From a virus, in IMG/VR virus record IMGVR_UViG_3300020171_000469, positions 1 to 25,526 of that record: a DNA stretch of 25,526 nt. One strand, given 5' to 3'. The notes under the pieces are model-generated. The model made no database searches and was not told the DNA's origin. It worked only from the letters and a program-made list of their open reading frames with translations. The position numbers and the translations under genes were made by a program. Position 1 is the first letter of the stretch, and each line of letters opens with the position of its first letter. This document shows positions 1,176-17,656 of this stretch, in pieces.

Positions 1176-1468
1176 AAGTTGCAGAAAAGTTTGAAATACA
1201 GTTGAAATGGAACTGGACTCTTGATGAAAGACCAATTTTCCCTATTATCCACGTTTTCCTTGAACCACCTGGAACAATTCTTCTCTTTACTATTTTTCCC
1301 GATGCTATGTTTATAAGGAGTAACAAGGATATGTCCAGTGTTATAAAAAAGCTAATGCAGAAAATGGATTCGTGGGAAACAGAGCGTGACTCAGCATGCC
1401 GAGTAACCAAAATCTATGGTTATCTGGACTTAATAAAAGTTGGTAATAAAAAGGGGGCTAAACGTTGA
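1160..1468 (+). CDS. Hypothetical 102-residue protein
   Basis: Open from a GTG at 1160 to a stop at 1466-1468, overlapping the TTG start of the ThDP gene by 4 bases, which suggests translational coupling. No family is recognised. It has a hydrophobic central beta-like part (IIHVFLEPPGTILLFTIFP) and a charged helical C-terminus ending in KKGAKR. No signal peptide or clear membrane helix is evident. The upstream Shine-Dalgarno for the GTG is weak (GGGGA); TTG at 1172 is an alternative start. A much stronger ribosome binding site belongs to a TTG at 1137 in a different frame, so the real N-terminus is uncertain. Placement between two metabolic genes hints at an accessory role, which is speculation. 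Confidence 0.55.
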   Translation: METYLKVAEKFEIQLKWNWTLDERPIFPIIHVFLEPPGTILLFTIFPDAMFIRSNKDMSSVIKKLMQKMDSWETERDSACRVTKIYGYLDLIKVGNKKGAKR

Positions 1469-3261
1469 AAGTAGCTGACTATGTCATTCAATCACTCGGT
1501 GACTATGGTATCAAGGACATCTTCGTTGTCTATGGTGGGGCTAACGGCGACCTTATAGATGCCTTTACCAGAGTCAAGAACACCCGTTATATCTGCACCA
1601 TGCACGAGCAGGCGGGGAGCTTTGCTGCCGAGTGCTATGCAAAGGTCACAGGCAAGCCAGCGGTTGCCATAGCCACCAGCGGCCCTGGTGGACACAACTT
1701 TGTGACTGGCATTGCCAACTGCTACTATGATTCAACACCATGCCTTTTTATCACTGGACAGATACACTCGAAGTTTCTTAGACCAGACCCCAGTATCAGG
1801 CAGGTGGGTTTTCAGGAAACAGATATAGTCAGCATAGTCAAACCCATCACCAAGTATGCCAAGATGGTCACAGCCCCACTTGACATCAAGTATGAACTGG
1901 AGAAGGCGTTACACATAGCGCAGAGTGGCAGACCTGGGCCTGTCCTTCTGGATTTACCAGTAGATGTCCAGAAGGCAGAAGTTGAGGTTGATACTCTTGT
2001 TGGGTATGAACCTGTTAGTAGTGCCTATGACATGGTCAAGGTAGGACAACAAATTAACCAGTTCTTCGATGATTTATATGGATGTAAACGTCCTGTCATA
2101 CTTGTAGGTGGTGGAGTGAGAACCGCTAATGCCGTAGACTCTATAAAACGTTTCGCTACGCTTCTCTCAATTCCTTGTTTTCCCACGTGGAATGCCCTTG
2201 ACATCATAACTTCCGACCTGAAGTATTATGGAGGTCGAGTAGGCACTTATGGGGGCCCTGGCCGGAACTTCGCCATACAGAACTGCGACCTACTTCTGGC
2301 GATTGGGAGTCGCATATCGGGGAGAATCACTGGTGGGAACCTCAAATCATTTGCCCGCGCTGCCAAGAAGTATGTCGTAGATGTGGATGAGACTTTATTG
2401 GATAGGAAACTTCAACAAGTCCCCTTTGATGTCAATATCCACTGTGATGCTAAGGCCTTTCTATCTATGATTTTGAAGCGTTATTCACCTTATCCTGTCT
2501 TCAGTGACTGGGTTAAGCAGGTTATGGTTTGGCGGGACAAGTATGACCCTGTGCTACCTGAGCTCGAAGAGCAAAAGGAGTTTGTTCATCCCTATGTCTT
2601 TATGAAGATTCTGTCAGAAGAACTGGAACATAAGGACATCATAGTTGCCGATTGTGGTGGGAACCTCGTGGTTGCCAGTCAAGCCTTTGAAACAAAGATG
2701 GGGCAACGATTCATTACCAGCAATGGCAACTCCCCGATGGGATTTTCCTTTGCCGGTGCGATGGGGGCATGGTTTGCCGCGCCGGACAGGAACGTAGTGT
2801 GCCTGATAGGTGACGGTGGTTTCAACATGAACATACAGGAACTCCAGACCTATAAAAACTATGGAGTCAAGGTCAAGACCTTCATAATGAACAACCATAT
2901 CTACGGAATCACCAAAGCCTTCCAGGAGACGAACTTCCAGGGTAGGGCAGAGGCCTGCGGCCCCAAAGGTTATAGCCCACCTGACTTTGTAAAGGTAGCT
3001 CAGGCTTATGGGATTAGAACTGTCACCATGAGCAATAACGCTGAAATCAGGGAGAAGATAAGAGAGGTTATGGCCTACGATGAAGCGGTAGTTTGTGATG
3101 TCAACATGCACGAATACCATACTTATGACCCTCGAATCTTTGGCTGGAACACGCCTATCGAGGACATGTTTCCATATTTGTCGCGGGAGGAGTTCAGGAA
3201 AAACATGATAATCGAGCCGGTTGGTGACTGGGAACACCCTGTTTATCCTGATATTCATTAA
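1465..3261 (+). CDS. Thiamine diphosphate-dependent enzyme, acetolactate synthase (IlvB)-like
   Basis: A 598-residue protein with the full three-domain layout of the acetolactate synthase/pyruvate oxidase family. The N-terminal Pyr domain has the catalytic Glu48 in MHEQAGSFAAECYAK and a SGPGGHNF segment. The middle domain has VILVGGGVRTANA. The C-terminal ThDP domain has GDGG (Asp450) and the paired Asn476-Asn477 in FIMNNHIYG, the 26-residue spacing expected for the Mg-ThDP motif. It has the residues needed to be active. The family decarboxylates pyruvate-like 2-oxoacids and may transfer the two-carbon unit. The long C-terminal extension (YDPRIFGWNTPIEDMFPYL) resembles, from memory, copies found in surface-polysaccharide clusters, such as those making branched sugars, rather than valine/isoleucine synthases. 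Start TTG has AGGGGG seven bases upstream. No regulatory small subunit is adjacent. Substrate is unassigned. Confidence 0.9.
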   Translation: MKVADYVIQSLGDYGIKDIFVVYGGANGDLIDAFTRVKNTRYICTMHEQAGSFAAECYAKVTGKPAVAIATSGPGGHNFVTGIANCYYDSTPCLFITGQIHSKFLRPDPSIRQVGFQETDIVSIVKPITKYAKMVTAPLDIKYELEKALHIAQSGRPGPVLLDLPVDVQKAEVEVDTLVGYEPVSSAYDMVKVGQQINQFFDDLYGCKRPVILVGGGVRTANAVDSIKRFATLLSIPCFPTWNALDIITSDLKYYGGRVGTYGGPGRNFAIQNCDLLLAIGSRISGRITGGNLKSFARAAKKYVVDVDETLLDRKLQQVPFDVNIHCDAKAFLSMILKRYSPYPVFSDWVKQVMVWRDKYDPVLPELEEQKEFVHPYVFMKILSEELEHKDIIVADCGGNLVVASQAFETKMGQRFITSNGNSPMGFSFAGAMGAWFAAPDRNVVCLIGDGGFNMNIQELQTYKNYGVKVKTFIMNNHIYGITKAFQETNFQGRAEACGPKGYSPPDFVKVAQAYGIRTVTMSNNAEIREKIREVMAYDEAVVCDVNMHEYHTYDPRIFGWNTPIEDMFPYLSREEFRKNMIIEPVGDWEHPVYPDIH

Positions 3262-3480: not shown

Positions 3481-3684
3481 GTGGCAGAATATGATATAAT
3501 TGTAGAGTTAAGATGTCCACAATGTAATAAAAAGCTGGGAGAAAACCTAAAGGGACATATTGAGATTGTCTGCCCCCGTTGTAAGGGGTATGTTAAATTC
3601 CAAACAGAGCTACTTGATAGCCGACCAAAAGGGTCGGCTTTCTTGTTAAAGGGGGCACATGAAGCCAGCAAAAATAACGATTGA
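3481..3684 (+). CDS. com: Com-like zinc ribbon protein
   Basis: A 67-residue protein with a four-cysteine zinc ribbon: Cys12 and Cys15 in RCPQCNKKL, Cys31 and Cys34 in IEIVCPRCKGYVKF. This matches the phage Mu Com type (Zn_ribbon_Com). In Mu, Com binds a hairpin in mRNA and switches on translation of the DNA-modification gene mom. No mom gene is seen in the window. The start is GTG with only a weak upstream purine stretch. The 3' end runs over a perfect hairpin (3619-3639) and overlaps the portal start by 26 bases, so the last roughly 20 residues may not be conserved. A regulatory RNA-binding role is inferred from the family. Confidence 0.75.
   Translation: MAEYDIIVELRCPQCNKKLGENLKGHIEIVCPRCKGYVKFQTELLDSRPKGSAFLLKGAHEASKNND
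3492..3500 (+). promoter_or_regulatory. Possible extended -10 promoter element
   Basis: TGATATAAT is an exact extended -10 (TGn-TATAAT), and the same nine bases recur at the better-supported promoter at 14180-14188. The -35 position here (around 3471-3477) is a poor match, and the element lies inside the com reading frame, where it encodes ordinary residues. A transcript from it would run about 130 bases to the hairpin at 3619. Weakly supported. Confidence 0.25.
3619..3647 (+). terminator. Hairpin/intrinsic terminator candidate before the portal gene
   Basis: AGCCGACC (3619-3626) pairs perfectly with GGTCGGCT (3632-3639) around an AAAAG loop, followed by a T-rich stretch (TTTCTTGTT). This is the form of a Rho-independent terminator, with an interrupted T run that suggests partial read-through. 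It ends about a dozen bases before the portal start, and lies within the com 3' end. It could alternatively be an RNA element controlling portal translation. Confidence 0.6.
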
Positions 3685-5488
3685 GGAAATCAAGGAACTC
3701 CAGCAGAAATGTGAAACATTCTACGAACCCTTATGGAAATGTTTTGAGGACGACGAGAAGTATTTTGAACTCGACTTCAAATCCCTGCTCAATCTTCCAA
3801 AGGAATTCCAGACTGAGGGTATAACACTACCTACAGCAAGAGATGTGGTTGACACTTATGTTGACCACGTTGACTTGAACAATGCACGGGTGACTGTAAC
3901 GCAGCAGGGTAATACTCAGGCTGATTTTGAACGGCAGCAACTAATGAGGAAGTTCTTCCTGGGCATGATATACCGCACCAATGTGGAATCAGACATTTCA
4001 CCGTGGCGTGTGGCAGGTAAACATCACGGGCTGCACGGAATGGGAGTGTTCAAGACCGTCTATGATGCCGATAGATGGCCTGATAAGCCAGAGCAAGGCG
4101 AAAAGGTATCCGACAGTGAGTATGCCGAAAGGCTAGACCAGTGGCGGTATGAAAAGGGTAATAGTTTACCCATTGTCATACAAGCTGTCAATCCCCATTG
4201 CATAATGCCCGATCCTTCTTACGGGGGCAGGCAATTCGTAATCGAAAAACACCCCAGACTCTTACTTGACATCAGGGAACGGTATCCTAATTGGTCTAAT
4301 CCAAAGGGGAGAAAGATAGCGGAAAACGTTGAGTTTGTATCCTACTGGGATGCAAAGTATCGTTGCGATATGGCTGATGGTGAACCTCTTCTGAAAGTCA
4401 AAGGTGGTGTGGCGCAACATAGTTATGGTTTCATTCCATATACCATCATTGATGCTGGGCTGGGGAACCTTTCTTATGATAATAAACCCGAAATGAGGTA
4501 TGTCGGCATTCTCAGATATATTAAAGACCTACTTATAGCAGAAAGTAGGGATTTCTCAATCGCTGATATAATTCTGGCAAGAGTATCATGGGGAGGCGGT
4601 TTCCTTGAAGGCGACAAGGCTAAGGAGGTAACCGAACTAAGTCAGAAGTTTGGGGAATACACTCCACTACCCGTAGGTGTCAAGGTAATTCAGAACAATC
4701 AGCAAATTCCTCCTGAGATGTTGAACCGGCATCTAGCGCGAACTTCCGACTATATTGCTGCTCATGCTGCTCCCAGGTCAGTTAGAGGACTAAGTGAAGA
4801 AGGTGTGCGTTCTGGTGCAGACCGCAGATTGGTAATTAGTGAAGCAGCGGCACGGTATAGATATTCGACAGAGGCATTTCGATATGGGACAGCTCAGGTG
4901 TTAATCAAGTGTGCAAGACTCTTCAAAAATGTCATCCCTGGGGACATACAGGTGTGGGCTAAGACTCCTACAGACGAATTCGATGTCGAGATAAAGAAGG
5001 ACAAACTGAAAGAACCTTTTACCTGCTATGTCGAATTTGCCCCGATTTCAGAGGAAGACGAGTATCGACGGCATGATGACATGGAGAGGTTGCTGGCGCA
5101 AGGGGTAGTTACGCCAAAGTGGGCTAGGAGTCAGATGAGTAATGTAGACCCGATAGCAATGGACTTGGATGAAGAAATACAAAAATTGAAGAACGACCCG
5201 ATGTTACAGGGGCTTGTCTCACAGTATGCTGCGGGCAAACTGGCGGCAGCCATCTCCAAGAGGACAGGTGGAGAAGCAATACCTGGACTTGCTCAAGGGG
5301 CTACTCCTGTGGCACCCCCACAACCAGGACAACCAGAAGCTGGTAGGCAGTTAATTGCGCCTATTCCTCAGAAGGCACAACCAGGGACAGCAGAGGACAT
5401 ACAAAACAAGATGAAGCAAATGAGAAGCCAGACTTCCATGTCACCGACTCAAGGTAGAGGTGTTAACGCAGGAGGTAATAAACCATAA
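3659..5488 (+). CDS. Portal protein
   Basis: A 609-residue protein assigned as the portal (head-tail connector), the twelve-part ring at the capsid vertex through which DNA is packaged and ejected. Support comes from size, the soluble helical/beta composition, the mid-protein segment VNPHCIMPDPSYGG typical of portal wing/stem regions, long helices around residues 275-430, and a flexible Gln/Pro-rich tail (about 535-609) as in many portals. Position before an HNH gene and upstream of scaffold and capsid agrees. The ATG has GGGGG about five bases upstream. The stop overlaps the next start by one base (TAATG). No terminase is seen in the window; it would be expected nearby. The assignment rests on pattern and context rather than a catalytic motif. 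Confidence 0.8.
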   Translation: MKPAKITIEEIKELQQKCETFYEPLWKCFEDDEKYFELDFKSLLNLPKEFQTEGITLPTARDVVDTYVDHVDLNNARVTVTQQGNTQADFERQQLMRKFFLGMIYRTNVESDISPWRVAGKHHGLHGMGVFKTVYDADRWPDKPEQGEKVSDSEYAERLDQWRYEKGNSLPIVIQAVNPHCIMPDPSYGGRQFVIEKHPRLLLDIRERYPNWSNPKGRKIAENVEFVSYWDAKYRCDMADGEPLLKVKGGVAQHSYGFIPYTIIDAGLGNLSYDNKPEMRYVGILRYIKDLLIAESRDFSIADIILARVSWGGGFLEGDKAKEVTELSQKFGEYTPLPVGVKVIQNNQQIPPEMLNRHLARTSDYIAAHAAPRSVRGLSEEGVRSGADRRLVISEAAARYRYSTEAFRYGTAQVLIKCARLFKNVIPGDIQVWAKTPTDEFDVEIKKDKLKEPFTCYVEFAPISEEDEYRRHDDMERLLAQGVVTPKWARSQMSNVDPIAMDLDEEIQKLKNDPMLQGLVSQYAAGKLAAAISKRTGGEAIPGLAQGATPVAPPQPGQPEAGRQLIAPIPQKAQPGTAEDIQNKMKQMRSQTSMSPTQGRGVNAGGNKP

Positions 5489-6006
5489 TGCCTAATATTG
5501 GTGATACGATAACTGGTAGACATATTGGGAAACGTAATAAAGACAGTTATATCTGGTTAGCATGTGGGGAATGTGGTGAAACACGATGGGTGAAAAAAAG
5601 ATATGATGAGGGATTGCCAAAGGTATGTCAAAAATGTTCTTCACATATTGGTAAAGAGCAAATTATTCGGAAGGGCTACATACGTGTCTATTTACGAAAA
5701 GATGATTTTTTTAGGCCGATGGCTAATCGTAAAGGACAGAAAATGGGGGGATATGTCTTAGAACATCGCTTGGTTATGGCAAAATACTTAGGGAGAAACT
5801 TACAACCTTGGGAACTTGTTCATCATAGGAATGGGGACAAGAAAGACAACCGGATTGAAAACCTAGCACTCATCAATGACTTAGGTCACAAACAATTAAC
5901 TACACTTGAAAGTAAGATTGATAAACAAACAGAACTAATAGAAGAATTGCGGAAGGAAATCAAACTGCTTCAATGGCAACTTAAAGAAGTAGGTATAAGC
6001 CCATGA
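5488..6006 (+). CDS. HNH endonuclease with N-terminal zinc ribbon
   Basis: A 172-residue protein. A zinc ribbon is formed by Cys26, Cys29, Cys47 and Cys50 (CGEC and CQKC). The HNH core follows: EHRLVMAKYLGR (His93), then LVHHRNGDKKDNRIENL with His112, His113, Asn121 and Asn125, the standard arrangement of phage HNH nucleases that bind one metal ion and cut DNA. The C-terminus (about 133-165) is a charged coiled coil. The start overlaps the portal stop by one base and its stop overlaps the next ATG (ATGA), so it is fully integrated in the operon. It may be a homing-type nuclease or a helper of packaging, as HNH proteins near terminase/portal genes sometimes are. The nuclease family is clear; the role is not. 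Confidence 0.88.
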   Translation: MPNIGDTITGRHIGKRNKDSYIWLACGECGETRWVKKRYDEGLPKVCQKCSSHIGKEQIIRKGYIRVYLRKDDFFRPMANRKGQKMGGYVLEHRLVMAKYLGRNLQPWELVHHRNGDKKDNRIENLALINDLGHKQLTTLESKIDKQTELIEELRKEIKLLQWQLKEVGISP

Positions 6007-6267: not shown

Positions 6268-8382
6268 ATGCCGGCAGATACGATATTGTTAAGAAATAGG
6301 CTTACGGGGCAGTTGTCTCAAATTCCCACTGAAAATGGAGTTGCTGATGCTTTCCTGGCTGGCGATTGGGAACTTGCAGAACCACCACCAACGTCAGCCC
6401 CTGCTGGTGGAGACATACCCCTATGGACAGGACAAACTGCTGGTGGAGGCACAGCACCCCCAGTGGCACAGACCGCAGCACCAGGTGGGCTCTATGGCCC
6501 AGGAGGTCTTGCAAACACACAGATAGTTTCAACGGGTTACTCGCCAGCAAATCAATTCGATGAAATGTTTAACCCCCGAGGGCAGGACTATATAGGGATG
6601 ACATACCAGCAATACCTTGCTCAGTATTTTCCTAGTTGGGGTCAATCGCCTCCTGGTGGTAGTACGACTGGTGGTGGAACGACTGGTGGTGGGACGACAG
6701 GAACTACCATGCCTGATGACGAAGCCAATGTTAGGCAATGGACATCAGTATATGGTCGCCAACGGGGGCAACCCGGGTATGAGCGCGCAGTAGCAATGGC
6801 ACTTGCAGTAATGCGGGGTCAAAGGCAACCACCTACGAATGAAGAAATTGCGGCATTGGCAGTTGAACCTACGATACCAACACCCACACCTACTCCTACA
6901 CCCACGCCAACGCCTACGCCTGGGCCTACACCCACACCTACTCCTACGCCTACTCCTCCACCGACGCCTACACCTACGCCAGGGCCTACGATACCGCCTA
7001 CGATACCACCTACTGGTGGTAGAACGACTGGCACAGCCGCCCAGTGGATAACCCGTTATGCTTCTGCAAGAACAGTTGCGGAGCTGAACGCGGTATTCAC
7101 TGAACTACGTAATTTGATGAACCAGAACCCAGCATACTTAGATGAAGCTGCCTATGCACAGGTAGATGCAGCTTATAGAACCCACTATACCCGTGTGAAT
7201 GTTGCTGCACCAACGACTGGTGGGGGTACTACAGGTGGTGGGACAGGTGGGGGCGCAGGCGGCGGCGCAGGTGGTGGAACAGTTATTGGGTCAGATATTA
7301 CCATTGGTGGCATTCACTACAGGATAGTAGAGATAAATGGTAGAAGATTTTTAGCACAAGTGATGGACGATGGGAATCTTCAACCATCTGACCAGTGGTT
7401 AAATCTAGGGGCTAGTCCTGAACCAACTGTCGGTAGTTTGTACAATAGCTATGCTGAGGCTCTAGCAGCCGCGGGCACAACGGGTTATACTCCAACGCAG
7501 TTGACATCTGGCGCTTGGGCTTTGGAACCACCACCTGCTTCAGCCACTATGCCCGCTGGATTATGGGGGACTTATGAAGAAGCGAATGCAGCCGCGCCCA
7601 CAGGTTATGTGCCACAGCAACTAGCCAATGGCTATTGGGGCTTAACAACAGCACCAGCAGGGCAAACGTCTTATCCTACTCCTACGGGGGCAGCTCCTAC
7701 AGACACTTATGGTAGGACAGCTACTTGGGATACTGATAATGCGGAATGGAGATACCCGCCTGATTGGGGAAGAGACCCTGCAACACAGGCAGGGGGATAT
7801 ATTTCACCTGCCGAGCAAGCTGCAATAAACGCTCAAACGGCAACTTTGGCTTGGCAACGAGAACAGGCGACTACTCAGGCAGGGCAATGGCAGCAAAACT
7901 TTACCTTACTGCAACAGCAAGCAACCGCAACACAGAACTTAGGTCAAGCTCAACTTGCAGTTGAGCAGGAACGACTGGCGGGGGAACAGCGACAAGCCGC
8001 CACGGCAACACAGCAGACACAGCAGAACTATCTAGCTCAACTTATGGCTCAACCTATGAGTTGGCTACAGTATTCAATGGCTGCAAAAGAAACTCCGGCA
8101 GTCCAACCCTGGATGAAACCTTTGATGCCGCAGGAGTATAAAGAACTTCAACCTGGGGCAGCAATGCCTGGTTGGAGTACAGAACAACCATTGGCTACAC
8201 AGTTGCCAACACTCACCACACCAGCAACACAATATCTTGCTCGTATGAACCCGACATCACGGCAACAATACCTCGGATACCAGCAAATGAAGACTGGAGC
8301 GACACCAGATGACACGGCTTTCTGGCTGAATAATCTAGCTCCACCCGGTAGTCCATACAGCAAACTTACTTATGCGAGGTAG
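6268..8382 (+). CDS. Large low-complexity Pro/Thr/Gly-rich virion-associated protein
   Basis: A 704-residue protein begun by ATG with GGAGGTG upstream. In order: an N-terminal part with GDWELAEPPPTSAPAG (about 31-46); Gly/Thr linkers near residues 130-150; a Thr-Pro dipeptide tract (about 201-250); a short structured part; another Gly-rich linker (about 315-342); two related modules of roughly 35 residues (about 390-425 and 431-465) that share the pattern Y..A.AA..GY.P.QL..G.W.L; then a Gln/Ala-rich long helix (about 515-600) and a C-terminal domain. The N-terminal stretch resembles the end of the modules, giving three related copies. Such composition suggests a flexible virion or ejected protein. 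Neighbours are portal-side genes and the 1132-residue protein. No family recognised; a structural role is inferred from context. Confidence 0.6.
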   Translation: MPADTILLRNRLTGQLSQIPTENGVADAFLAGDWELAEPPPTSAPAGGDIPLWTGQTAGGGTAPPVAQTAAPGGLYGPGGLANTQIVSTGYSPANQFDEMFNPRGQDYIGMTYQQYLAQYFPSWGQSPPGGSTTGGGTTGGGTTGTTMPDDEANVRQWTSVYGRQRGQPGYERAVAMALAVMRGQRQPPTNEEIAALAVEPTIPTPTPTPTPTPTPTPGPTPTPTPTPTPPPTPTPTPGPTIPPTIPPTGGRTTGTAAQWITRYASARTVAELNAVFTELRNLMNQNPAYLDEAAYAQVDAAYRTHYTRVNVAAPTTGGGTTGGGTGGGAGGGAGGGTVIGSDITIGGIHYRIVEINGRRFLAQVMDDGNLQPSDQWLNLGASPEPTVGSLYNSYAEALAAAGTTGYTPTQLTSGAWALEPPPASATMPAGLWGTYEEANAAAPTGYVPQQLANGYWGLTTAPAGQTSYPTPTGAAPTDTYGRTATWDTDNAEWRYPPDWGRDPATQAGGYISPAEQAAINAQTATLAWQREQATTQAGQWQQNFTLLQQQATATQNLGQAQLAVEQERLAGEQRQAATATQQTQQNYLAQLMAQPMSWLQYSMAAKETPAVQPWMKPLMPQEYKELQPGAAMPGWSTEQPLATQLPTLTTPATQYLARMNPTSRQQYLGYQQMKTGATPDDTAFWLNNLAPPGSPYSKLTYAR
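6871..7014 (+). repeat. Thr-Pro coding repeat tract
   Basis: A run of alternating ACN-CCN codons, broken a few times by Gly-Pro, Pro-Pro and Ile-Pro. Third positions vary (A, T, G, C), so the repeat is kept at protein level and is not a simple DNA microsatellite. It forms an extended polyproline-like linker in the 704-residue protein. Confidence 0.85.
7435..7665 (+). repeat. Two tandem approx. 35-residue protein modules
   Basis: Two in-frame segments encode similar modules, one beginning SLYNSYAEALAAAG and the next GLWGTYEEANAAAPTG. Both continue with GY.P.QL and a G.W.L ending followed by a Pro/Ala-rich spacer. A partial third copy occurs at the protein N-terminus (GDWELAEPPPTSAPAG, near 6360-6410). 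The divergence indicates old internal duplication. Confidence 0.6.
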
Positions 8383-11793: not shown

Positions 11794-11931
11794 ATGCCAC
11801 TTACACCTAAAGGCAAAAAGATTTTGCAAAACATGAAAAAGGAATATGGGGCAAAGAAAGGCAAAGAGGTTTTTTTTGCCAGCCAAAATAAGGGTATAGT
11901 CAAAGGAACTCATAAAGGGAAGAAGAAGTAA
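11794..11931 (+). CDS. Small basic 45-residue phage protein
   Basis: ATG at 11794 has GGAGG seven bases upstream and opens 45 codons to TAA at 11929-11931. It begins MPLTPKGKKILQNMKKEYG, is highly Lys-rich, and ends KGTHKGKKK. Small proteins that begin like this (MPLT.KGKKI...MKK.YG) are, from memory, frequent in phage structural modules. They are not assigned a certain function; nucleic-acid binding is plausible from charge. Its stop is one base before the start of the first radical SAM gene, an arrangement that also invites comparison with peptide/maturase pairs. There is no cysteine and no obvious leader cleavage site. Confidence 0.75.
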   Translation: MPLTPKGKKILQNMKKEYGAKKGKEVFFASQNKGIVKGTHKGKKK

Positions 11932-11932
11932 G

Positions 11933-13003
11933 ATGGAATGGGCTAACGTATCAAAGTACAATTCTTTCAATTCTTACAAGGGTTTGACATACTATGACCA
12001 CTACCAGAAGATAGGAGCGTGGCTAAAGAATGAAGGGAGATTGCCAGCACCGATAGAGGCATCCCTTGACCCCATGAATGCTTGTAATGACATTTGTTAT
12101 TACTGTAATTCCCAGTGTTATCTTCGAGACCATCCTTCCAAGCTACAGCAATGGGACAGGCAGTTCATTGCGGATACGCTTGTGAGGTTAGCAGATTGGG
12201 GAGTCGGGGCTTTCTGCTGGGGTGGTGGTGGTGAATCTCTAATGAATCGAAATATCAGGGGCATGACCAAATTCGGCATAGATTTGGGTATGGAGTGCGC
12301 CATTATCACCAATGGGGCTTTGCTGGATGACGAGTTGATTGACGAACTACTACTCTGTCGCTGGATTGGGATTTCGCTTGATAGTTGTGTGCCACAAGTC
12401 TACGAGGTAGTGCGGGGAAGAGATGATTGTGTAAAAGTCCTGTCCAACATAGCCAAACTGGTGAAAAGGAAGGCAGAGTTAAAGAGCAAAACTGACATCT
12501 GCGCCAAAGTGCTGATATTGCCCGAAACGATTGATACCATAGCCGAAACCTGTCAAGTGGTCAAGCAACTGGGAGTGCAGGACTTCCATGTGCGGCCTGT
12601 AGACCTGGAACGCAACGACTTCAAGGTTGCACAACGATTGAATCTGGACATCCCCAAGATTCAAGGTATCTTTGAAGAATGTCATGCCATGGAGACACCT
12701 ACTTTTCATGTTTACACCGTCACCCACAAGTATAACAATGACTTCCACGTGGAACACAAGTTCAAGAAATGCCTTGCTAGTCCCCTAGTGATGCAGATTT
12801 GCACAGACAAAAAAACCTATCTTTGCGTTGACCATCGCCTAGACCCTCGATTTGAAGTCAAAGGATGGGGAAGTGCTCAACACCGGGAGTTAGTGTTAGG
12901 AGTGAACCCAGACAAAGAGTGCGGGAAATGTACCTGGAGTGAGTATAACCGACAGATGGAAGAATGCGTGACGGAAGATAGGCTTTGTCGGAACTTCCCG
13001 TGA
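11933..13003 (+). CDS. Radical SAM protein with SPASM-like C-terminal cysteine cluster
   Basis: A 356-residue protein. The radical SAM cluster motif CxxxCxxC is Cys51, Cys55, Cys58 (CNDICYYC), and the SAM-binding glycine motif is GGGGES (97-102). The C-terminal third holds seven more cysteines (280, 290, 298, 330, 333, 345, 352), including CGKC. This fits a SPASM or twitch domain holding auxiliary iron-sulfur clusters. SPASM enzymes often modify peptides, proteins or sugars through a 5'-deoxyadenosyl radical. No RiPP-recognition domain is evident in the 50 residues before the first Cys. The ATG is one base after the 45-residue peptide gene, and the 3' end overlaps the next radical SAM gene. 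The substrate is unknown. An active enzyme is likely since all cluster ligands are present. Confidence 0.88.
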   Translation: MEWANVSKYNSFNSYKGLTYYDHYQKIGAWLKNEGRLPAPIEASLDPMNACNDICYYCNSQCYLRDHPSKLQQWDRQFIADTLVRLADWGVGAFCWGGGGESLMNRNIRGMTKFGIDLGMECAIITNGALLDDELIDELLLCRWIGISLDSCVPQVYEVVRGRDDCVKVLSNIAKLVKRKAELKSKTDICAKVLILPETIDTIAETCQVVKQLGVQDFHVRPVDLERNDFKVAQRLNLDIPKIQGIFEECHAMETPTFHVYTVTHKYNNDFHVEHKFKKCLASPLVMQICTDKKTYLCVDHRLDPRFEVKGWGSAQHRELVLGVNPDKECGKCTWSEYNRQMEECVTEDRLCRNFP

Positions 13004-14187
13004 CCCTAATAGTCAACCCCAACAACCGACTTAGGACTAACCTTGCAGCCATAGAACCGCCGTTGTGGTCTGGTCTTACCAGTTCCTACCTACATGCTGA
13101 CATCCTGGATGCCGAAGCCCTGGACTTGACCTTAGACGAAACAGAGCAAAGGATAAGGGAGTTACATCCTGAGTCCGTGATTATCGTGGTCATGGGTAAC
13201 AATCCTTCGGTATCCTCTACCCCCAAGATGCCTGTTGCTGAGGCACTGGCAGAACGTATCGAGGACTTGGACGTGTCCCTGACAGGGATTCACCCGATAG
13301 CAGTAGGCAGTAGGTTCAAGGTTATCAAAACTCCTTTTCACGGTTGTCCTGATATGCCTTTTGACCTGTTGCCGATGGACAGATATAGAGCACACAACTG
13401 GCACTGTTTCGATGGTTCGCCAAGAATGCCTTATGCCTCGGTCTACACCAGTCTGGGATGTCCCTTTGATTGTTACTACTGTCCAATTCATACTCTATAT
13501 AATGGAAGGCGTGTTCGATTCCGACCTGTTGACAATATCTTGAGAGAAATTGATACTCTAGTCACGAAATATAAGGTCAGGAATATCAAGTTCTGGGACG
13601 AACTATTCAGTCTGAAAGAGGACAGGGTAACCGCTATATGTAGTGGTTTGAAGGGATATAAACTCAACATATGGGCATATGCGCGTCTGGACACAATCAC
13701 TGAAAAGATGCTCAAGGCTATGAAAGATGGTGGGATAACCTGGTTAGGCTGTGGGTTTGAAAACATGGACGATGGGAAGGTCACCGCGGGGATAGAGGGT
13801 GTCATAAAGGGGATACGGGATGCGGGCATAAACATAGCCGCCAATTTCATGTTTGGCTTGCCAGAGGATACCCCAAAGAGTGTGAGGGCTACACTGGACT
13901 TTGCCAAGAAACACCTGTTTGAGTATGTGAACTTCTATGTAGCAAGACCTTATCCAGGGTCTCAGTGGTATGCCGACCTGAAGTTAAAGGATGTAGAATG
14001 GGAAGATTTTAACCAGTATGGTAAGAACCGTTTACCCTTCCGTGACATGGCTTTCAAGGAATACTTTACTAATCCAGACTACTTGAGTATGATGGAGTTA
14101 AAATTCGGGGAACAGGGAGTTAATCAGATACACACCATGCTTTCATGGGATGGGCATAATGACAAAGGCGCTAAAAGTGTGATATAA
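12985..14187 (+). CDS. Radical SAM protein of the B12-binding type
   Basis: A protein of 400 residues if begun at TTG 12985 (GGAAG seven bases upstream), or 395 from GTG 13000, which overlaps the previous stop as GTGA; either is credible. The N-terminal 130 residues look like a reduced cobalamin-binding Rossmann domain (NPNNRLRTNLAAIEPPLW, then a hydrophobic IIVVMGNN strand), but no DxHxxG cobalamin-ligand motif is visible. The radical SAM core has Cys159, Cys163 and Cys166 (GCPFDCYYC), a typical IKFWDELFSL strand, GCGFENMDD and MFGLPEDTP. This is the layout of the BchE/methyltransferase-like class. Such enzymes methylate or rearrange unreactive carbons. Pairing with the SPASM-like enzyme suggests a two-step modification. 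The stop codon lies inside the promoter -10 described below. Confidence 0.85.
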   Translation: MSELPVTLIVNPNNRLRTNLAAIEPPLWSGLTSSYLHADILDAEALDLTLDETEQRIRELHPESVIIVVMGNNPSVSSTPKMPVAEALAERIEDLDVSLTGIHPIAVGSRFKVIKTPFHGCPDMPFDLLPMDRYRAHNWHCFDGSPRMPYASVYTSLGCPFDCYYCPIHTLYNGRRVRFRPVDNILREIDTLVTKYKVRNIKFWDELFSLKEDRVTAICSGLKGYKLNIWAYARLDTITEKMLKAMKDGGITWLGCGFENMDDGKVTAGIEGVIKGIRDAGINIAANFMFGLPEDTPKSVRATLDFAKKHLFEYVNFYVARPYPGSQWYADLKLKDVEWEDFNQYGKNRLPFRDMAFKEYFTNPDYLSMMELKFGEQGVNQIHTMLSWDGHNDKGAKSVI

Positions 14188-14188
14188 T
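14159..14188 (+). promoter_or_regulatory. Sigma70-like promoter upstream of scaffold/capsid genes
   Basis: ATGACA (14159-14164, five of six to TTGACA), an 18-base spacer, and TATAAT (14183-14188) preceded by TG at 14180-14181, i.e. an extended -10. A second TATAAT follows at once, as tandem TATAATG TATAATG (14183-14196). The site overlaps the end of the radical SAM gene. It is the best promoter-like match in the window and would drive the scaffold-capsid genes if the following terminator is read through. Confidence 0.65.
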
Positions 14189-14233
14189 GTATAATGTTGT
14201 AGTTTAACAAAAGAATATAAATAGTGCTCAATG

Positions 14234-14275
14234 AAGCCAGGAATGTGCGCTCGAAGCCGTTACCTGGCTTTTTTG
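14234..14275 (+). terminator. Intrinsic terminator in the scaffold leader
   Basis: AAGCCAGG (14234-14241) pairs perfectly with CCTGGCTT (14263-14270) around a 21-base loop, and six T residues follow (14269-14274). It ends about 50 bases upstream of the scaffold start and about 85 bases downstream of the promoter -10. It may end transcripts of the radical SAM genes, or act as an attenuator or the 3' end of a short RNA. Confidence 0.75.
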
Positions 14276-14325
14276 TTATCTGGAGTTATTTCAGAAAGGA
14301 ATGACTTCAACAGAAGGAGGTTTCA

Positions 14326-15015: not shown

Positions 15016-15900
15016 ATGGCTATTACGACAACTACTGTAATGGCCGATACGGTTCCAACGATACTTGAAAAGGCCAGGTTCACAGAACAGTTCATTGCCG
15101 AAATGAGTAGATTGGTGTGGAAGATAACCAAGAAACTCCATGATGGCAAGAATGTGAATATCCCGTATTTTGGAATTGTGACGGCCAAAGCATTGACTGA
15201 GGGTGTTGATAACGCTGTTTCCGAGACTATGAGTGACACCCTGGTTACGATCACCCCCGGTGAGGTCGGATGTAAACTCATCCTGACCGATAAACTTGTC
15301 AGAGACGACAACGAGGACATCAAGGCGGCTGCGGGACGGATTCTGGGCAATGCAATGGAGGTCAAGAAAGACACAGACCTCTTGGCATTGTTCTCGTCTG
15401 CCTCTACTACCCTGGGTGGTGGTGGTGTAGGTACTATGGGGGTTGTGGCTGCTGCCAGAGCTATCCTGAAAGGTTGCCCTGTAAGCTCTGGTGGGCCTGC
15501 GCCTGGTAAACTGGTGTATGTCTTGCATCCCTATGTCTCCCTGGACTATGTGGACATCTTGACACCACTGGGCCCAACAGCAGGTACGACCTCTCAGCAA
15601 CCTGGTGGAGAAATGACGGATGATGTTCTACGGAACTACGGCATTGGCAAGATGTTCGGGATGCCATTGATTGAGGACGGCAATATCACGGCTGCTGCCG
15701 GAACCTGTCATGGTGGCATATTTGCTACTGGCGAAGGTGGGGCGATAATCCTGGCCACGGCAAAGGAATGGGACGTAGAAGCAGAACGAGACGCATCCCT
15801 TCGAGCCACTGAACTCAACATTGTGGGTGAATACGGCGTTGGGTATTACCTGAATACCTGGTGCGTAGACATGAACCAAGATGCTGCGTTGCCTGGTTAA
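15016..15900 (+). CDS. Major capsid protein (HK97-fold type)
   Basis: A 294-residue protein begun by ATG after AAGGAG, 9 bases after the scaffold stop. It opens MAITTTTVMADTVPTILEKA, then VWKITKKLHDGKNVNIPYFG, a helix-rich segment, and a Gly-rich region. The segment KLVYVLHPYVSLDYVDIL and the end (NIVGEYGVGYYLNTWCVDM) match the pattern of many phage N4-gp56-like/HK97-fold capsid proteins. It should form the icosahedral shell. There is no N-terminal delta domain long enough for HK97-like self-scaffolding, in agreement with a separate scaffold gene. The order scaffold, capsid, decoration-like protein supports the call. Confidence 0.85.
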   Translation: MAITTTTVMADTVPTILEKARFTEQFIAEMSRLVWKITKKLHDGKNVNIPYFGIVTAKALTEGVDNAVSETMSDTLVTITPGEVGCKLILTDKLVRDDNEDIKAAAGRILGNAMEVKKDTDLLALFSSASTTLGGGGVGTMGVVAAARAILKGCPVSSGGPAPGKLVYVLHPYVSLDYVDILTPLGPTAGTTSQQPGGEMTDDVLRNYGIGKMFGMPLIEDGNITAAAGTCHGGIFATGEGGAIILATAKEWDVEAERDASLRATELNIVGEYGVGYYLNTWCVDMNQDAALPG

Positions 15901-16753: not shown

Positions 16754-17656
16754 TTGGACGAACAGGTGTTACCCATGAGTATGGACACGCAGGAAAAGCT
16801 GATTGACATAGTTGTGCCTACGCATAACCATCTGGAACTAACAATAACCTGTATGCAGAATCTTTACGAACATACCAGGACACCTTTCCATCTCATTGTT
16901 GTAGACGATTCAACGGATGGTTTAACACACCGTTACTTTGCACAACTCAAGAAGGAGAAAAAGAATATCACCTTTATCCATTCCAATACGCCATACAAAA
17001 GTGGCAATCAGTTCTTTAACATTGCTTTTCAGCATACTCAGAGCAAGTTTGTTGCTACGGTAATGAATAGCAACAAAGTAGAACCAGACTGGGAAATTGT
17101 TGCCCTGCATCTCATGGAGAGAGACCCCAAAATTGGAATCATCGGGTTCAAGAATATTTTCCCTGATAGGACAATAGAAAGTGCTGGAATCAGGATCGTC
17201 AAATTCCTACCCACAGATATGGGAAGGGGTCAATGTAGTCACAGATTGTCCAACACCTATGAATGTGATGCAGTCCAATGGGCATTCTGTTTACTACGAA
17301 AAGAGGCCATCCCAGTCTTAGAGGAGGATGTCTACAATGGCTTTCGAGGATGGGATGACATAGATAACTGCCTCGTAATGAGACGAAATGGATGGAACAT
17401 TCTGTATTGTGGCTTAGGCGTGGCCTTCCATGAACCAAGAGCTACCAGAGGGGATAACAGTCAGAAAGCAGCTTTGGAGAATGCTCAGAACAGGGAGATG
17501 TTTTTCAAACGATGGGGTATGTGGGTTGACTTTAAGAAGGACAATCCCCAGGCTCAAGAACTACTTCCCGATTACCCAAAGAGTGCCCCGGTTATGAAAG
17601 CACCAATGCCTAGTGCTACCTCACCTATACCTGAAAGAGTATTGGTGAAAGTGTAA
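16754..17656 (+). CDS. Family 2 glycosyltransferase (GT-A fold)
   Basis: A 300-residue protein begun by TTG, seven bases after a perfect AGGAGG; the first ATG (16775) has no ribosome binding site. The GT2 start motif is DIVVPTHNHLELTITC, with the nucleotide-binding LIVVDDSTDG. The acceptor-side motif GWDDIDNCLVMRRNGW contains the expected catalytic Asp pair, followed by the conserved His in VAFHEPR. The usual LNNDT metal-binding motif reads MNSNK (104-108), with Asn107 where the Asp is expected. It should transfer a sugar from a nucleotide-sugar to an acceptor, perhaps the virion or a host glycan. It has no membrane segment. The C-terminal 50 residues are Pro/Lys-rich. Placed between capsid and tail genes, it may glycosylate a structural protein, an inference. 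Confidence 0.85.
   Translation: MDEQVLPMSMDTQEKLIDIVVPTHNHLELTITCMQNLYEHTRTPFHLIVVDDSTDGLTHRYFAQLKKEKKNITFIHSNTPYKSGNQFFNIAFQHTQSKFVATVMNSNKVEPDWEIVALHLMERDPKIGIIGFKNIFPDRTIESAGIRIVKFLPTDMGRGQCSHRLSNTYECDAVQWAFCLLRKEAIPVLEEDVYNGFRGWDDIDNCLVMRRNGWNILYCGLGVAFHEPRATRGDNSQKAALENAQNREMFFKRWGMWVDFKKDNPQAQELLPDYPKSAPVMKAPMPSATSPIPERVLVKV

Follow-up and report, generated by a model that had tools for sequence, protein, structure and literature searches.

The window, by which we mean the whole stretch of DNA analysed, is an entire IMG/VR virus record of 25,526 bases and is probably a genome fragment. It carries two adjacent radical SAM (rSAM) genes, here termed rSAM-A and rSAM-B, and the following features were considered together with them.

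208-1140, + strand: GAPDH-like dehydrogenase, 310 aa, with Gp_dh_N and Gp_dh_C domains; TIGR01534 below cut-off.
1465-3261, + strand: ThDP carboligase, acetolactate-synthase/YerE-like, with TPP_enzyme N, M, and C domains; best PDB match 8rph.
11794-11931, + strand: 45-aa basic protein with a GGAGG motif upstream of its gene; read as a neighbour, not part of the system.
11933-13003, + strand: rSAM-A, 356 aa; Radical_SAM domain (PF04055, 46 bits), Cys conservation, AlphaFold model and PDB fold search.
13000-14187, + strand: rSAM-B; PF04055, 55 bits; AprD4 best by sequence, profile, and fold; B12-binding-like N-terminal domain shortened.
14227-14278, + strand: terminator-like hairpin, intrinsic, 3' of the rSAM transcript; folding z -2.67 at about 14230-14275.
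15016-15900, + strand: major capsid protein (context), PF25209, phrog_267.
16754-17656, + strand: GT2 glycosyltransferase near the capsid gene, PF00535; co-occurs with rSAM genes among capsid relatives.

The gene order given in a preliminary description of this DNA was present in the sequence throughout: the 45-aa open reading frame is separated by one base from rSAM-A, which in turn overlaps rSAM-B. The rSAM-B frame can be read from TTG 12985, in frame with GTG 13000, and we take the latter as the more likely start because the conserved N-terminus (LIVNPNNR) begins right there; the overlap with the rSAM-A stop would then be four bases (GTGA). The virion setting was likewise borne out, with a putative scaffold gene and then the major capsid gene following the hairpin. 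That hairpin agrees with the description of the cassette as bracketed by a terminator, but on the 3' side only. A promoter-like site with an extended -10 (14159-14188, 11/12 matches) directly follows rSAM-B, and the number of such sites around the rSAM locus is at chance level. Promoter-like site and hairpin succeed each other within ~100 bases (14159-14280) and may mark a short RNA or, for the capsid operon, an attenuated leader; an Rfam search of the window gave no match. Elsewhere in the window, positions 3481-3684 encode a 67-aa protein with two CPxC zinc-ribbon motifs that is reminiscent of the Mu Com translational regulator.

Both rSAM proteins scored above the Pfam Radical_SAM cut-off and have the CX3CX2C motif. 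The first had been called SPASM-like, and its family does conserve a partial SPASM/twitch-like Cys set of the form CX17C plus CX2C (C280, C298, and C333 at 100%, C330 and C352 at 92%), but the Pfam SPASM profile (PF13186) did not match rSAM-A, and the label is justified in part. When the AlphaFold model of rSAM-A (pLDDT 80.0) was compared with PDB folds, DesII came first, followed by SkfB and BlsE, whereas a profile search against the PDB placed SkfB, a RiPP maturase, on top. Because of this last result, rSAM-A is not diagnostic when taken alone.

With near-identical records counted once, rSAM-A and rSAM-B occur together in nine virus groups, the window included, and in two nanoarchaeal MAGs. 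Every virus group with rSAM-A has rSAM-B at most three genes away (9/9) and also has a ThDP enzyme (9/9). In the eight groups other than the window, the pair shares a short cassette with a ThDP carboligase gene, and seven groups additionally have an HddA-like GHMP kinase, an RfaE-like nucleotidyltransferase, or a cupin or GmhA-like isomerase; kinase, nucleotidyltransferase, and isomerase are absent from the 25.5-kb window record. The ThDP enzyme is of the E1 alpha/beta type at loci L005, L007, L012, L023, and L181, of the acetolactate-synthase type in the window and L010, and of the transketolase type in L013 and L044. At L005, for example, the two halves of an E1-type enzyme precede an rSAM-A 62% identical to that of the window, and after this rSAM-A come genes for a GHMP sugar kinase, a cupin, and the rSAM-B homolog. 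Where genes intervene between rSAM-A and rSAM-B, those that could be assigned encode a GHMP kinase, a cupin, a cytidylyltransferase-like protein, or a GmhA-like SIS isomerase, with the exception of one HNH gene in L044; a 116-aa intervening gene of L012 gave no match. HNH genes were also seen at 5488-6006 of the window (HNH_3, phrog_10730) and at 7370-7837 of L183, where one interrupts the sugar cassette, which suggests homing-type insertions.

The same association was found from the side of rSAM-B. Among 40 viral loci with rSAM-B relatives, a ThDP enzyme was encoded in 31/40, a GHMP kinase in 16/40, and a nucleotidyltransferase in 9/40, while none of the three was found in 80 control loci, which were taken around small-gene relatives with flanks of at most 6 kb and add up to 512 kb. 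The cassette kinase resembles heptose-1- and heptose-7-phosphate kinases, the nucleotidyltransferase resembles RfaE domain II, and one isomerase resembles GmhA. Wider scans recovered further viral records and four archaeal MAG contigs. Two archaeal MAGs have rSAM-A and rSAM-B inside polysaccharide clusters, surrounded by glycosyltransferase genes and further B12-type rSAM genes; one of these clusters (L050) also encodes a polysaccharide flippase and an aminotransferase. Both of these glycan clusters, L050 and L051, are packed with several B12-type rSAM genes around the homologs. rSAM-A was found in 2/194 genomes drawn from the archaeal phylum, both already known, a count that comes from a thinly sampled cell side. 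A modified sugar had been the third of the products offered in the preliminary description, and this recurrent linkage supports it well. We conclude that the rSAM pair very probably performs sugar chemistry.

The ThDP gene of the window lies at its left end, 8.5 kb upstream of the rSAM pair and alone beside the GAPDH-like gene. Its product best matched PDB entry 8rph (325 bits), which we take to be the YerE-like JanthE, and acetolactate synthases (AHAS) came next at 284 bits. Genes for relatives 62% identical to this enzyme are immediately flanked by a B12-rSAM gene on one side and a GHMP kinase gene on the other, and at L132 the ThDP and kinase genes are followed by genes for a DegT aminotransferase and an NAD-epimerase. 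The window enzyme is a probable partner for C-C branching. A 2025 review names three classes of ThDP enzyme that branch sugars at ketones, namely YerE-like enzymes, the two-subunit alphaKADH2, and transketolases (PMC12247030), and these are the three types that replace one another in the viral cassettes. The GAPDH-like gene, for which the patterns used retrieved no relatives in IMG/VR, is by its position a possible, weak candidate for a further accessory gene of the sugar pathway.

A candidate for the transfer of the sugar lies 3' of the capsid gene. This GT2 is 42-54% identical across rSAM-carrying relatives and, among those capsid relatives whose records span 17 kb or more, its family was present in 7/8 rSAM-positive and 0/7 rSAM-negative records (relatedness uncorrected). 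The eighth rSAM-positive record ends soon after the capsid gene, and two of the rSAM-negative records encode another, weaker protein with a GT2 domain. From this distribution, the GT2 is the probable sugar transferase of the system. Since it tracks the rSAM genes, we consider a glycosyltransferase to be tied to the cassette and a virion glycan to be its likeliest product, although for the virion as the actual target we see the chances as evenly poised. The sugar might instead be placed on a host-surface glycan, changing the receptor or excluding superinfection. The cell homologs do lie in polysaccharide clusters, and host glycans could take up an activated sugar produced inside the cell. Nevertheless, wherever a capsid relative has the GT2, the gene lies inside the capsid/tail module, none of the window proteins that were searched was recognisable as a membrane protein for glycan modification, and we regard a host-surface destination as unlikely, if still a serious contender.

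A third, full-length B12-binding rSAM gene stands beside the GT2 gene in several relatives (L005 3948-5534, L183 2259-3845, L181 13621-15204, and L168 12709-14229) and is missing from the window. Separately, window positions 6268-8382 encode a protein of 704 aa containing extended Pro-Thr and Gly-Thr repeats, which is possibly a glycosylation target or a flexible virion linker.

Whether the pair dehydrates or methylates its sugar depends on rSAM-B. This protein had been described as B12-type, which fits its family in that the B12-binding domain PF02310 matched 15/22 rSAM-B relatives, but PF02310 gave no match to the window protein itself. The segment from GxH to YRAHNW measures 39 residues in window rSAM-B vs 68-100 in relatives that keep the region, and the window protein and its nearest viral relatives lack about 30-60 residues of the domain. 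AprD4, a dehydratase that is active without cobalamin, was the best PDB match by sequence, by profile, and, using an AlphaFold model of pLDDT 88.6, by fold. As drawn from sequence comparison and a predicted structure, this likeness shows kinship of fold and is not proof of the diol-dehydration reaction. A scan of viral sequences with window rSAM-B as the single protein found no relatives. The window rSAM-B is divergent, and distances in rSAM-A and rSAM-B are only moderately correlated (Mantel r 0.52 over all, 0.43 for viral sequences only); the exact reaction may for these reasons differ from that of the relatives.

It is in the same sugar cassette that rSAM-B could act as a cobalamin-dependent C-methyltransferase, giving a product that is C-methylated and not dehydrated and branched. 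The domain matches in relatives are consistent with this, the methylases TsrM and MgmA are among the rSAM-B fold matches, and cobalamin-using B12-rSAM sugar methylases exist in GenD1 and GenK (PMC5461906). Against it stand the shortened B12 domain of the window protein and the dehydratase as closest structure by every method, which together weaken a pure methyltransferase reading. On these model- and alignment-based grounds, we favour dehydration over methylation and think the latter rather improbable.

The preliminary description had also allowed for a modified virion protein. This may be so by glycosylation through the linked GT2, but hardly by direct action of the rSAM enzymes on, for example, the capsid protein or a 1132-aa protein. 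The pair does lie between virion genes in the window, in L012, where the cassette occupies the window's interval between a giant gene (homologous by profile) and the scaffold and capsid genes, and in L007, with an unlabelled giant gene on one side and the capsid gene on the other. In L005, L044, and L181, however, the cassette lies among tail genes, and the homologs in cellular glycan clusters have no virion genes around them. Movement of the cassette as a unit fits a metabolic module better than it fits modification of a single protein encoded next to it. On account of its mobile position and its sugar-gene neighbours, we reject direct modification as the main reading, and as any part of the explanation it is highly improbable.

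The headline of the preliminary description had been a peptide substrate with two rSAM modifiers, and this proposal did not survive once the linkage of the small gene was analysed. The protein encoded there, of 45 aa, contains 14 K/R, 2 D/E, and, as had been stated, no Cys, and matched no family in Pfam, PHROGs, or NCBIfam. Similar proteins had correctly been said to occur in phages that have no rSAM genes: at least 458 relatives came out of an IMG/VR profile scan, and family profiles found rSAM-A, rSAM-B, or another cassette gene in 0/80 small-gene loci. In Pelagibacter phage HTVC033P a relative directly follows the large terminase gene, and in phage MW202711 one directly precedes the portal gene, with no annotated rSAM gene nearby in the region shown for either. 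Conversely, the small gene was present in 2/13 virus records with the rSAM pair or a related capsid gene, once directly before the terminase genes and 31 kb from rSAM-A (G007) and once as a 31-residue remnant 12 kb from the pair (G004), and in no other virus examined does it adjoin the pair. On the genomic side, the small gene is thus common in relatives that have no rSAM pair, a finding that the preliminary description had itself named as counting against the peptide proposal, does not travel with it, and by sequence is best regarded as a member of a common small basic phage family, placed upstream by chance. For a RiPP-like system in which this peptide is a precursor modified by a SPASM-like rSAM-A and a B12-type rSAM-B, there speak the one-base gap in a single virus and the SkfB matches of rSAM-A by profile and fold, but the linkage data lead us to reject the precursor role, the genes linked to the pair are sugar genes and not a precursor, and we give the idea almost no weight.

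Returning to the sugar pathway, we set out from gene presence, recurrent linkage, and fold relationships to propose an order of steps, substrates, and a target. A cupin or GmhA-like SIS isomerase, an HddA-like GHMP kinase, and an RfaE-like nucleotidyltransferase would supply an activated sugar, possibly a heptose; in the window virus, these steps would fall to the host or to unsequenced parts of the genome. The AprD4-like rSAM-B, perhaps with a DesII-like rSAM-A, would abstract hydrogen from the sugar, and elimination of water or ammonia would leave a keto-deoxy sugar. The ThDP carboligase, of the YerE/acetolactate-synthase type in the window and of the E1 alpha/beta or transketolase type in relatives, would add a short acyl or ketol branch to the ketone, and the GT2 would move the product to its target, most plausibly the virion, otherwise a host-surface glycan. 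The order is suggested by the chemistry, in that a keto sugar is what YerE-type enzymes require and what AprD4- or DesII-type chemistry produces.

Our confidence falls as this scheme becomes more specific. That the rSAM pair belongs to a phage sugar pathway for a deoxy, probably C-branched sugar, with enzyme roles in outline, we hold to be reasonably likely. The division of labour in which rSAM chemistry makes the keto acceptor and the ThDP enzyme branches it is a tentative assignment, and we are doubtful of the full version, a modular tailed-phage pathway in which rSAM dehydratases provide a keto-deoxy acceptor, interchangeable ThDP enzymes branch it, and the GT2 puts a C-branched, possibly heptose-derived, sugar on the virion. 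The main gap is in the window itself, given its missing kinase, nucleotidyltransferase, and isomerase and the distance of its ThDP gene from the rSAM pair; the SkfB profile match, the closeness of the AHAS and 8rph scores, and the divergence of rSAM-B with only moderately correlated distances also count against the sugar-pathway reading. The open-access literature searched held no description of phage cassettes joining an rSAM pair with sugar genes, and no paper that brings phage and radical SAM together with GHMP kinase or transketolase. If the reading is right, phages would offer sugar-modifying radical enzymes and ThDP carboligases from a new source, and a chemically elaborate coat on the virion or the host surface would be indicated. 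The exchange of three ThDP classes in similar cassettes yields a testable prediction about the product of the radical enzymes.

Several known systems resemble parts of this one. The rSAM/SPASM RiPP systems of SkfB and SuiB likewise combine an rSAM core and auxiliary-cluster cysteines with a small upstream open reading frame, but here no precursor is linked to the pair at other loci, where sugar genes are found instead, and no leader, peptidase, or transporter was recognised. The nucleotide-heptose pathway (GmhA, HddA, and RfaE domain II or HddC) has an isomerase, kinase, and nucleotidyltransferase like those of the relatives; these, however, fall well short of the equivalog cut-offs of NCBIfam, the set is complete in no virus, and the window record has none of its genes. 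AprD4, the radical SAM 1,2-diol dehydratase of apramycin biosynthesis, shares ~20% identity with rSAM-B, whose N-terminal domain is the shorter, and no counterpart of its reductase partner AprD3 was recognised here. DesII, the radical SAM deaminase of TDP-desosamine biosynthesis and closest fold to rSAM-A, acts on a nucleotide sugar to yield a keto-deoxy sugar, converting TDP-4-amino-4,6-dideoxyglucose to TDP-3-keto-4,6-dideoxyglucose (PMC11434129), but is 16-17% identical over the match, and rSAM-A has its own conserved C-terminal Cys set. Finally, the YerE-like, alphaKADH2, and transketolase-type pathways to yersiniose A, erwiniose, and the aldgamycin sugar also place a ThDP carboligase beside nucleotide-sugar genes (PMC12247030). 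Those pathways are bacterial, and what they branch are deoxy keto sugars, CDP-4-keto-3,6-dideoxyglucose for example, whereas the cassettes described here are found in phages and have two rSAM enzymes at the point where the keto-deoxy sugar would be made.
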